DNA of 5,714 nucleotides. Origin: an uncultured Eubacteriales bacterium (GTDB lineage Bacteria > Bacillota_A > Clostridia > Lachnospirales > Lachnospiraceae). The notes under the pieces are model-generated. The model did not search any database and was not told the origin of the DNA. It saw only the letters and a program-made list of their open reading frames with translations. The stretch spans positions 1 to 5,714 of the forward strand of contig ONVT01000271.1 in assembly GCA_900321365.1 (NCBI GenBank), written 5' to 3'. The position numbers and the translations under genes were made by a program. This document shows, piece by piece, positions 928 through 5,714 of the stretch (the stretch's first letter is position 1; each line of letters starts with the position of its first letter).

Positions 928-3522
928 CTACTCCATCTCTGTGTCCGGGGAGTCTTCCTCCTGTATGTCTTCCGCATCGTCCATCTCATTATCGATGTCG
1001 TCCACATCCTCTCTGTCTACGGACTCATCTGAAGGATCCTCATCCGTTTCTTCTTCGTCTTCGCTCTTCTGTACACTCTCACGCACTTTCGCGACAGAGA
1101 CAACGAGGTCATCCTCATTCAGGCGCATCAGCTTTACGCCGGACGTAATCCTGCTGAGAACAGATATATTCTCACAGCTCATACGGATGATAATTCCGTC
1201 AGAATTGATCATCAGAATCTCATCATCCTGCTCAACGGCCATTGCATCCACCAGATTGCCTGTCTTCTCCAGAATTCTGTAGCAGAGGACACCCTTTCCG
1301 CCGCGGCTCTGTGTCTTGAATTCAGCAATATCCGTCAGCTTGCCCAGGCCCTTTTCCGACACAGTCAGAAGGAACGGCGCCGCATCAGCGATCACCATGG
1401 AAACCACTTCGTCACCGTCCATCAGGTTGATGCCCCTCACTCCCATGGAAGGCCTTCCGGTAGATCTCGCGTCGGATTCCCTGAACCGGATACACTGTCC
1501 AAACTTCGTGATCAGGAGGATCTCCTGCTCATCGTCCGTCGCTTCCACAGAGATCAGTTCATCGTCCACTCTCAGCGCAATCGCGATCAGACCGTTCTTC
1601 CGGACATTCGCGTACTCGGACAGCAGTGTTCTCTTGATCTGCCCACGTCTGGTTGCCATGGTCAGATATCCGTTTTCATTGTATTCCTCATCGGACCCCA
1701 CGGCGATTACGGCAGACAGTTTCTCATCACTCTGCAGCTGAAGCAGGTTTACAATCGCAGTGCCCCTTGCCGTACGGCCCGCCTCCGGAACCTCATAGGC
1801 CTTCATCTTGTAGACGCGGCCCTTGTTGGTGAAGATCATCAGGTCCGCGTGGGTATCCGTCATGAGAAGCCGGTCGATGTAGTCCTCCTTCAGGGCCTGC
1901 ATTCCCTTGATCCCCTTGCCGCCGCGGTTCTGTGACTTGAAGTTGTCTTCACTCATACGCTTAATGTATCCAAGCTTTGTAAGCGTGATGACGACATCCT
2001 CCTTCTCCACCAGGTCTTCCGCGTCGAATTCTCCCAGATCATAACCGATCTGTGTTCTCCTCTCATCCCCGTATTTTTCGGAAATGACCAGGATTTCTTC
2101 CCTGATTACGCCAAGCAGCAGCTTTTCGTCGCCGAGGATTGCCGTGAGACGGGCAATGGTTTTGAGCAGCTGCTCATGCTCTGCCTCGATCTTTCCTCTC
2201 TCCAGACCGGTCAGTGCCCTCAGCCGCATGTCGATGATTGCCTGGGCCTGCGCGTCATCCAGGCCGAATTTTTCGATCAGGGATGCCTTCGCCGTCTGCG
2301 GGCTCTCCGAGGAACGGATGATCCGGATAACCTCATCGATATTGTCCAGCGCGATCAGCAGACCCTGCAGGATATGATCCCTTTCCTGTGCCTTGTTCAG
2401 GTCATAGCGCGTGCGCCTGGTGACAACCTCTTCCTGATGCTTCAGGTAATACTGGAGCATCTCCAGCAGATTCAGAACCTTCGGTTTGTTGTCGATCAGC
2501 GCCAGCATGATCACGCCGAAGGTATCCTGCAGCTGGGTGTGGAGAAACAGCTTATTCAGGATAATATTCGCGTTCGCGTCCTTCCGCACATCAATGCTGA
2601 TGCGCATGCCCTCCCGGCTCGACTCATCCGTAATGCCGGTGATGCCGTCGATCTTCTTGTCACGCACCAGGGAGGCCATCTTTTCGATCAGCCTTGCCTT
2701 GTTCACCAGATACGGAAGCTCCGTGACAACGATCCTGCTTTTCCCGTTCGGAAGCGTCTCGATATCCGTGACCGCGCGCACCCGGATCTTTCCCCTTCCG
2801 GTCCGGTACGCGTCACTGATTCCGTTCTTTCCCAGAATCATCGCCCCCGTCGGAAAATCCGGTCCCTTGATGATCTTCATCAGTTCTTCGATCGAAGTCT
2901 CGCGGTCTTCATTAACCCGGTTGTCAATAATCTTTACCACCGCATCGATGACTTCTCTCAGATTGTGGGGAGGAATATTGGTCGCCATTCCGACGGCAAT
3001 TCCCGTCGTCCCGTTTACCATCAGGTTCGGAAAACGGCTTGGAAGCACGGTCGGTTCCTTCTCCGTCTCATCAAAGTTCGGAACAAAATCAACCGTGTCC
3101 TTATTGATGTCCGCCAGCATCTCCATGGACATCTTCGACAGCCTTGCCTCGGTGTAACGCATCGCGGCGGCACCGTCGCCGTCCACCGATCCGAAGTTTC
3201 CGTGGCCGTCCACCAGCGGATACCGCATGGACCAGTCCTGTGCCATATAGACAAGAGCACCGTAGATGGAACTGTCCCCGTGAGGATGGTACTTACCCAT
3301 GGTATCGCCGACGATACGGGCACACTTGCGGTGCGGCTTGTCGGGACCGTTATTCAGCTCGATCATCGAATACAGAACCCTGCGCTGTACCGGCTTCAGA
3401 CCATCCCTGACATCAGGAAGCGCCCTTGCGGCGATCACGCTCATCGCGTAATCGATATAGGACTCCTCCATCGTCTTCTGAAGATCCACTTCCCGGATCT
3501 GGTCAAATATTTTGTCATCCAT
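928..3522 (-). CDS. gyrA: DNA gyrase subunit A
   Basis: The DNA-cleaving subunit of gyrase (A2B2), which passes one duplex through another and wraps DNA to add negative supercoils. It is 864 residues long and complete. Seen: the winged-helix breakage-reunion domain has QRRVL (46-50), the quinolone-region motif YHPHGDSS (78-85) and MRYTEARL with catalytic Tyr123 next to Arg122. Ile175 in [15 protein letters not shown] matches the DNA-intercalating isoleucine. Coiled-coil and exit-gate segments span about 360-490. The C-terminal beta-pinwheel (about 500-815) carries the GyrA box QNRGGKG at 531-537, which separates it from topoisomerase IV ParC. A box-like QSRGGKG recurs at 738-744. The last 44 residues (821-864) are very acidic, with 27 Asp/Glu and one Arg. 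Oddity: Gly88 sits where E. coli GyrA has Asp87; Ser84 (E. coli Ser83) is kept. The start is fixed by AGGAG 8 nt upstream, and the gene lies 15 nt after gyrB, so it is almost certainly co-transcribed. Confidence 0.98.
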
Positions 3523-3537: not shown

Positions 3538-5466
3538 TTATACATCCAGATTCCGGACTCTGGCTGCATTCTCTTCGATAAACTCCCTGCGCGGCTCCAC
3601 CTGGTCGCCCATGAGAGTCGTGAACGTCACGTCAATCGAGGAGATATCGCTCTCATCCATGGATACTCTCTTCAGGATTCGTCTCTCAGGATCCATGGTG
3701 GTCTCCCAGAGCTGGTCTGCGTCCATCTCTCCCAGTCCTTTGTAGCGCTGGATCTTGTTATTCTGGTCCCGGCCGACTTCGGAGAGAATCCTGTTCAGTT
3801 CCTCATCGGAATACGCGTACCATACCTTCTTGTTCTTTTCAAGCTTGTACAGCGGCGGAGTTGCGAGGTACACATGCCCCTGCTGGATCAGCTCCGGCAT
3901 GAACCTGTAGAAAAATGTCAGCAGCAGCGTCGCGATATGGGCTCCGTCCACGTCAGCATCAGTCATAATAATAATTCTGTTATATCGAAGTTTCTCGATA
4001 TCAAAATCTTCATGAATACCGGTTCCGAACGCCGTGATCATGGCGCGGATCTCAGCGTTTCCGAGGATCCTGTCCAGCCTTGCCTTCTCGACATTCAGGA
4101 TCTTGCCGCGCAGCGGAAGGATTGCCTGTGTCGCCCTTGCTCTCGCGGTCTTGGCAGAGCCGCCGGCGGAATCTCCCTCGACGATGAATATCTCACAGTT
4201 GTCGCGGTTCTTATCTGTGCAGTCCGCAAGCTTTCCGGGAAGGCTCAGTCCGTCCAGCGCGCTCTTTCTTCTCGTCAGGTCTCTCGCCTTTCTGGCGGCA
4301 GCCCTGGCTCTCTGTGCCATCACGGATTTCTCGATGATCAGCTTGCCGATCTGCGGATGCTGTTCCAGATAAATCCCCAGCCGTTCACTCAGAAGGCTTT
4401 CCACGGCACCCCTTGCCTCGGAATTGCCAAGCTTCTGCTTTGTCTGTCCCTCAAACTGCGGTTCCCCGATCTTGATGGAAATAATCGCGGTCAGGCCTTC
4501 GCGGATGTCTTCTCCGGTCAGATTCTCCTCACTGTCCTTGAGCAGCTTCTGCGCCCTGCCGTAATCATTGAATGTCTTGGTCAGCGCATTTCGAAATCCG
4601 GTCATGTGCGTCCCGCCTTCCGGCGTGACGATATTGTTCACGAAGGAGTATGTCGACTCGTTGTAACCGTCGTTATGCTGCATGGCAATCTCGACCAGCA
4701 CACCGTCCTTCTCACCCTCGCAGTCAATGATATCATCATACAGAGGCGTCTTCCCTTTATTCAGGTACTGCACGAACTCACGGATTCCGCCTTCATAGTA
4801 GAATGACCTCTCCTTCCAGGGATCCACTCTCTCGTCGGTAAGCGTGATCCTAAGCCCCTTCGTCAGGAATGCCGTCTCGCGGAGTCTCTGTCTGAGCGTG
4901 TCAAAATCATACTCCAGCGTCTCAAAGATCGAACTGTCCGCCATGAATGTGACCTGCGTCCCGCTCTCTTCCGGGCTGCAGTCTCCGACCACCTTCAGGT
5001 CATAGATCGCATGTCCTTTCTCATAACGCTGCTGGTAGATCTTCCCGTCATGGAACACCTGAACCTCCAGGTAATCGGAGAGCGCGTTCACAACCGACGC
5101 TCCGACACCATGCAGTCCTCCTGAAACCTTGTATCCCCCTCCGCCGAATTTTCCGCCGGCATGGAGCACCGTGAAGACTACCTCCACCGCTGGCCGTCCT
5201 GTCTTTTCATTGATCCCGACCGGAATCCCCCTGCCGTCATCCCTGACCGTGATGGAGTTATCAGGATGAATATTCACCCTGATATGAGAGCAGGCGCCCG
5301 CCAGCGCTTCGTCAACAGAATTGTCCACGATCTCATACACAAGGTGGTGCAGTCCTCTGGAAGAAGTCGACCCGATGTACATTCCCGGTCTCTTCCTGAC
5401 TGCCTCAAGTCCTTCCAGTACCTGTATCTGATTCGCGCCATATTCGGCGCTCGTCTCAGTTCCCAT
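3538..5466 (-). CDS. gyrB: DNA gyrase subunit B
   Basis: The ATPase subunit of gyrase: ATP binding closes the N-gate and drives strand passage through GyrA. From the preferred start it has 642 residues, the usual length for Gram-positive GyrB, without the roughly 165-residue insertion of E. coli GyrB. Seen (numbering from 5466): the GHKL ATPase domain with catalytic Glu45 and Asn49 in [11 protein letters not shown], the DDGRGIP box at 76-82, the ATP lid [15 protein letters not shown] (116-130) and the QTK loop (341-343). The TOPRIM domain has EGDSAGG (430-436) and the metal-binding DADVD (503-507). The C-terminal [20 protein letters not shown] (574-593) is the conserved GyrA-contacting tail. 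Start: an in-frame ATG at 5490 would add eight residues (MAADFGGF) but has no ribosome site. The ATG at 5466 has GGAGG 4 nt upstream and gives a typical N-terminus. A promoter lies upstream and gyrA follows in the same operon. Confidence 0.98.
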
Positions 5467-5470
5467 AAAA

Positions 5471-5475
5471 CCTCC
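5471..5475 (-). promoter_or_regulatory. Ribosome binding site of gyrB (decides the start)
   Basis: GGAGG, 4 nt before the ATG at 5466. The spacing is slightly short, but it is the only good Shine-Dalgarno near either candidate start. The sequence before the ATG at 5490 lacks one, so the shorter reading of GyrB is preferred. Confidence 0.75.
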
Positions 5476-5480
5476 GAAAT

Positions 5481-5498
5481 CTGCCGCCATCCGGGCAG
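5481..5498 (-). repeat. Small leader hairpin upstream of the gyrB ribosome site
   Basis: CTGCC and GGCAG can pair around an 8-nt loop in the gyrB leader, ending 5 nt before the GGAGG. The hairpin would cover the alternative ATG at 5490, another weak argument against that start. The stem is only 5 bp, so it may be chance. Confidence 0.35.
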
Positions 5499-5517
5499 GA
5501 AGCCATTATTTCTTTTA

Positions 5518-5571
5518 CGTTTTTTCATTTAACGCATATGGAAGAATTATACCACAATTATGAAAAAAACG
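5518..5571. repeat. Inverted repeat with A/T tracts bracketing the gyrB promoter
   Basis: The left arm at 5518-5528 is CGTTTTTTCAT; the right arm at 5560-5571 is ATGAAAAAAACG. They are inverted copies apart from one extra base in the A/T run, with 31 nt between them. The -10 element lies inside. The right arm overlaps the place where a -35 would fall and the left arm lies about +11 to +21. The two A/T tracts are about four helical turns apart. This could be an operator, a DNA bend, or a chance match between A/T runs. Confidence 0.45.
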
Positions 5572-5574
5572 CGA
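5546..5574 (-). promoter_or_regulatory. gyrBA promoter with extended -10
   Basis: On the minus strand TATAAT (5546-5551) is preceded directly by TGG (5552-5554), giving the extended -10 form TGnTATAAT. At a 17-nt spacer the -35 hexamer reads TCGCGT (5569-5574), a poor match to TTGACA, so the extended -10 probably carries recognition. The expected transcription start is an A near 5539, giving a leader of about 73 nt before the gyrB ATG at 5466. The call rests on sequence match and position only. Confidence 0.7.
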
Positions 5575-5584
5575 GATATACCCA

Positions 5585-5702
5585 GGAATCAGCAGGCAGG
5601 CCGCGCGGCAGGGGCACCGCCTCCGTGTGCCACCAGCGCCCGCTCCCGCTATGGTGGCACACGGAGGCGGTGCCCCTGCCGCGCGGCCTGCCTGTTGATT
5701 CC
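5585..5702. repeat. Very long GC-rich palindrome, 51-bp arms, upstream of the gyrB promoter
   Basis: The left arm at 5585-5635 (starts GGAATCAGCAGGCAGG) and right arm at 5652-5702 (ends CCTGCCTGTTGATTCC) are inverted copies over 51 bp with one mismatch (G5592 against T5695). The loop at 5636-5651 is 16 nt and can add three more pairs (GCG with CGC) beside a 2-nt bulge. Each arm contains its own 10-bp palindrome, GCCGCGCGGC (5600-5609 and 5678-5687). The arms are about 75% GC and sit next to an AT-rich promoter. There is no adjoining T-run on either side as in an intrinsic terminator, no obvious target-site duplication, and no transposase. The base of the palindrome lies about 34 nt upstream of the -10. 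Candidates are a non-autonomous mobile palindrome or REP-like element, an unusual terminator for the unseen upstream gene, or a structured RNA. I do not recognise the family. Confidence 0.9.
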
Positions 5703-5714
5703 CTCCGTACTCTC

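Follow-up and report, generated by a model that had tools for sequence, protein, structure and literature searches.

A near-perfect palindrome upstream of the gyrB promoter in a Lachnospiraceae bacterium, probably a MITE-like hairpin repeat

The window, by which we mean the whole stretch of 5,714 nucleotides analysed here, is a Lachnospiraceae-like gyrBA stretch with a long palindrome beyond the start of gyrB. Its main features are as follows.

928 to 3522, minus strand: gyrA
3538 to 5466, minus strand: gyrB, its start taken as the ATG at 5466, after GGAGG, as in relatives
5546 to 5551, minus strand: TATAAT, probable -10 box of the gyrB promoter, with the same box found in relatives
5563 to 5569, minus strand: run of seven T, starting 15 nt beyond the stem base
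5573 to 5714, no strand assigned: extended imperfect stem of 61 pairs from local folding, reaching the last base of the window
5585 to 5635, no strand assigned: left arm of the palindrome, 51 nt, 50 of them complementary to the right arm
5636 to 5651, no strand assigned: loop between the arms, 16 nt
5652 to 5702, no strand assigned: right arm of the palindrome, 51 nt

The list of open reading frames puts the gyrB start at 5490; from comparison with relatives, the ATG at 5466 is more probable. The far end of gyrA (928-1080, minus strand) encodes a strongly acidic GyrA C-terminal tail of about 45 residues. Positions 3-833, also on the minus strand, encode what is probably a lipoprotein; it has a linker rich in Thr and Glu and a Beta-lactamase2 domain (PF13354, E 3e-14), and is truncated by the window start.

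The arms of the palindrome make the near-perfect hairpin that had been described in an earlier note on this DNA. The sole arm mismatch, at 5592, would be a G.U pair in RNA of the plus strand and an A.C opposition in RNA of the minus strand. The GC content of the arms is 0.745, against 0.542 for the window. Folded as RNA, positions 5575-5714 (140 nt, minus strand) reach -131.4 kcal/mol, compared with -64.75 (sd 4.09) for shuffled sequences; the z score is -16.3 and none of 200 shuffles was equally stable, which upholds the view that the hairpin is far beyond chance. The palindrome is a short non-coding unit of 118 nt, or 142 nt with the outer stem included. An open frame on the minus strand (5515-5712) crosses it, and a protein search with this frame, seeking copies in mis-called genes, gave one candidate and scored none. 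The sharp ends attributed to the unit by the earlier note did not hold up, as the imperfect stem continues outward on both sides to its 61 pairs. In the best reading, which we think probable, the palindrome occupies the gap that separates the recF end from the gyrB promoter. On its recF side just 12 nt separate the perfect arms from the window end, and the stem runs through them, so the true end of the element may be off the window. With that short flank, no duplication of the 8-bp type described below is visible around the palindrome, the best flank match being 4 of 5.

The nearness of the arms to the window end also raises the question whether the palindrome is an artefact of assembly or fold-back where a contig ends, which we regard as very unlikely. 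Fold-back would make the flank outside one arm a long reverse complement of the other flank, and it is not; the internal mismatch and the 16-nt loop likewise make a fold-back unlikely. Long hairpins are moreover present at this site in other assemblies.

The TATAAT box (read on the minus strand, 5551-5546) lies 33 nt from the stem base, placing the palindrome upstream of the gyrB promoter, as had been proposed. The proposed lack of a U-tract is likewise borne out, since a terminator scan of 5400-5714 found no site and the nearby T-run stands well away from the stem base. Rho-independent terminators resemble the palindrome in being GC-rich hairpins after a gene, as in some of the relatives; we rejected this assignment in view of the 51-bp stem, the distance of the T-run and the empty scan. 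The suggestion of a structured RNA module gained no support from Rfam, in which all 15 matches (E up to 1) were microRNA-precursor models below their gathering scores; we accordingly rejected membership of an Rfam RNA family. Six related loci also gave no Rfam match that reached a gathering score.

Close relatives of the window GyrB, at L001 and L002, are 96% identical to it. The comparison genus, reached from L001, comprises 19 genomes. Four of these (G005, G009, G011 and G012) were left out on account of a paralogue-like GyrB match of 52-54%, leaving 15 genomes readable before gyrB. In 14 of the 15, recF is the gene read ahead of gyrB, and in G017 the contig starts inside the repeat. A script found TATAAT or TATACT after the recF stop in 11 of the 15, and by eye the box adjoins or overlaps the stop in three more. 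A block from TCGCG through TGTGGTATAATTC is common to the window, G010 and G002. The recF stop of G002 is 6 nt before TATAAT with no hairpin between them, while G010 has a 174-nt hairpin in the same interval.

Unrelated long hairpins or hairpin elements occur before gyrB in G001, G008, G010, G017 and G018. Copy number was counted for these five of the 15 regions, and in four genomes (G008, G010, G017 and G018) the element before gyrB is multi-copy in its own genome. The four types resemble neither each other nor the window palindrome. The long hairpin of G001, followed by a run of six T at 3 nt from its stem, is present in full once in its own genome, with one further match of 34 nt. No long hairpin or tested repeat was found there in the other 10 relatives, several of which have ordinary terminator-like stems (for example G007 and G015). 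The elements lie upstream of TATAAT in G001, G008 and G010, and between TATAAT and gyrB in G018.

These positions bear on the idea that a cruciform-forming palindrome might act as a supercoiling sensor at the gyrase promoter. The short distance to TATAAT and the long palindromes close to gyrB in several species are in keeping with such a role. The 10 relatives without such an element, the bare interval in G002 and the G018 element on the other side of its TATAAT make it very unlikely.

The G001 hairpin shows that a long hairpin before gyrB need not be a repeat, given that it has no second full copy. The window palindrome could similarly exist in a single copy, having grown where it stands between recF and gyrB to serve as a terminator or as a stem for RNA processing, and having been kept near-perfect by selection or by arm-to-arm copying. 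The G001 hairpin with its run of T, the terminator-like stems of other relatives and the lack of copies of the window sequence in the 19 genus genomes and 397 family genomes searched agree with this explanation. The missing U-tract at the stem base, a stem far longer than the terminator-like stems of the relatives and the dispersed repeats at this place in four of the 15 relatives argue against it, and we consider it unlikely.

The dispersed elements are of four types. The L101-type is a 133-bp element with GTAACTGTTCAG ends, seen at L101:1358-1490 and at nine further loci of G018 and G019 (the set L270-L279, in which L270 is the L101 site again). It has at least 40 places in G018 (40 scored of 263 candidates), and a single match, in one of six other genomes searched, outside G018. 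On this sequence comparison, species-private families are the rule for at least this one type. The L102-type, of about 165 bp with GTAACTATTCAGCACC ends (L102:1-87, L264:376-541, L266:1432-1596), is found in G001, G002, G008, G017 and G019. With both orientations counted, it gave 53 matches in G017 and at least 80 in G008 (from the best 40 of 117 candidates). The L104-type gave at least 79 matches in G008, with at least 23 places at which 113 or more of its 124 nt are covered (from the best 40 of 78 candidates). In an alignment of 32 L104-type copies (A2), mainly from G008 and G017, conservation is higher at the apex near GACTTTTGGGGGTC, with GAAACGAAGG or GGAGCGAAGG, than in the arms; two loci of this type matched no Rfam family. 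The L099-type gave 9 matches in G010, two of which are self-matches of the arms, leaving 7 places, and 13, 5 and 1 matches in G001, G002 and G017, respectively. Judging by titles, we found no published description of the relatives' repeats, and we know of no published name for the L101-, L102-, L104- or L099-type elements.

Three of the types often carry target duplications, which we defined as 8 flanking bases agreeing at 7 or 8 positions, with the terminal repeats defined by sequence. Such duplications flank the L101-type at 8 of 9 distinct full-ended sites, all eight of them exact (8 of 8), the L102-type at 8 of 12 sites and the L104-type at 10 of 18, of which one is exact. They are also present at 6 of 8 sites of short elements that have the same GTTACAGG ends. 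Shuffled pairings gave, in the order L101-, L102- and L104-type and short elements, means of 0.91, 0.66, 0.54 and 0.77 such sites and maxima of 7, 4, 4 and 5, the sets being small. At the gyrB site of G018 the L101-type copy has an exact 8-bp duplication, with GACCAATC on both sides; the 8-bp flank comparison of the L104-type copy that G008 has at its gyrB site found none. L099-type copies have no defined ends and no demonstrated target duplication. A transposase search of seven relatives matched IS66 in one and IS256 in one, both at loci without the elements' terminal repeats, and the Y1 (RAYT-kind) family in two.

In an inverted-repeat census of 400 kb of G010, 11 inverted repeats scored at least 50, four of them at least 70 nt long; the control, 120 kb of base-shuffled sequence, gave none. 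The census is an undercount, as it missed L099-type copies in its own 400 kb. The same 400 kb holds eight elements, the one at gyrB included (two L099-type, five L104-like and one terminal-repeat pair). Relative to this background, which comes from G010 alone, occupancy of the region before gyrB in 4 of 15 genomes looks high. As the background density is known for that one genome, we make no claim that the region is a hot spot.

The sequence of the window palindrome itself was found in none of the collections searched. It matched none of the 19 genus genomes (E 0.01), carriers of all four element types included, and none of 397 family genomes sampled from a larger group (E 1e-4), both searches being without a positive control. 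Plasmids and phages gave no match, and an exact 19-mer of the palindrome was absent from IMG/VR. Against the two nearest genomes, with E up to 10, the best match was chance-like (E 0.243). A search with the apex, allowing up to five differences in 2.2 Mb of the relatives' loci, gave 99 matches, none with fewer than five differences, and among the first 60 of these no like-built long hairpin was seen.

The explanation we favour is that the palindrome is probably a small, non-coding, MITE-like hairpin repeat from a family private to the window's Lachnospiraceae species. This explanation is drawn by analogy with the relatives, in which dispersed hairpin elements lie before gyrB and such elements carry terminal inverted repeats and 8-bp target duplications. 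The earlier proposal of a non-autonomous mobile palindrome is the best-supported reading on this analogy alone, with dispersed elements in four of 15 relatives and frequent target duplications in three of the four types; the palindrome's own sequence was matched in no relative searched. That absence fits families that turn over between species, as does the single match of the L101-type outside G018. At least 15 contigs of G008 start at base 1 inside an L102-type copy; repeats of such a kind break assemblies, and a window that ends 12 nt past the arms would give weak support to a repeat here as well. Set against a repeat are the failure to find copies of the window sequence, the lack of a visible duplication beside the 12-nt flank, the transposase search of relatives, which gave no mover, and the G001 hairpin, which is single-copy in full.

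MITE-like hairpins are already known as a kind, to which the palindrome probably belongs as a new member; we do not call it a proven MITE. As bacterial MITEs are characterized in part of a review (PMC10969869), the palindrome resembles them in being short, non-coding and intergenic and in forming a stable stem-loop. MITEs are there said to be typically AT-rich, whereas the arms of the palindrome are GC-rich, and the palindrome differs further in having no visible target duplication, no terminal repeats with defined ends in the window, no counted copies and no mover found in relatives. Inverted arms are present, though the stem runs to the window end and its true limits may lie outside. With the L101-, L102-, L104- and L099-type elements it shares its place before gyrB, a similar size (124-174 nt in those elements), a long stem and the lack of coding capacity, but no sequence relation. 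REP palindromes moved by RAYT transposases, as portrayed in part of another paper (PMC3733652), are 20-40 bp long with a GTAG or CGTC tag, and are like the palindrome intergenic and thought to be mobile. With 51-nt arms and a length of at least 118 nt, the palindrome was not assigned to them.

If the palindrome belongs to a species-private hairpin family, it would have arrived by transposition, through a transposase acting in trans. Transcripts that read through from recF into gyrBA would form at the palindrome an RNA duplex of about 51 bp. Cleavage of this duplex by RNase III is expected, judging by its structure and by Correia elements, the examples of RNase III cleavage given in the MITE review (PMC10969869). 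The palindrome RNA is on this analogy a likely RNase III substrate, and the palindrome would separate the recF and gyrBA transcripts by processing instead of by a U-tract terminator. If a MITE-like repeat is the right explanation, it connects an unexplained palindrome at a housekeeping locus with the many species-specific hairpin repeats that burden an uncultured gut genus, and it means that several species have such elements in the region before gyrB.

The L099-type has an unusual construction. In an alignment of 23 copies from G010, G001, G002 and G017 (A1; for example L131:1469-1682, L140:1469-1683 and L156:2095-2307), a conserved core runs from GCAAAC to GTTTGC and the outer arms vary between copies, yet each arm pairs with its own partner. 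Duplexes between arms of the same copy average -44.3 kcal/mol, and those between arms of different copies -21.3 kcal/mol. In 18 of the 23 the best pairing is with the own partner, and none of 2000 permutations was as good, with kinship uncorrected; the G001 copies share much arm sequence, so the 23 copies are not independent. At orthologous sites in the 400 kb of G010, three pairs (L156, L132 and L142) lack the element in G010, with gaps too diverged to trace the origin of the arms.

It is doubtful, though conceivable, that the window palindrome is of this L099-type class, with a core inside copy-private self-complementary stems whose arms are made or renewed locally without a master copy. Such arms might arise when the insertion site is copied in inverted form, or when one arm is corrected again and again from its partner. 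Arms made locally are not inherited from a master copy, and no relatives of the window arms would be expected. The conserved core in private stems is a side result that may be more novel than the palindrome, and the pattern would make testable how bacterial palindromes arise and stay perfect. The L104-type shows the same effect weakly: arms of the same copy average -37.0 against -29.6 for different copies, and 9 of 31 pair best with their own partner, a result equalled in none of 2000 permutations, again with kinship uncorrected.
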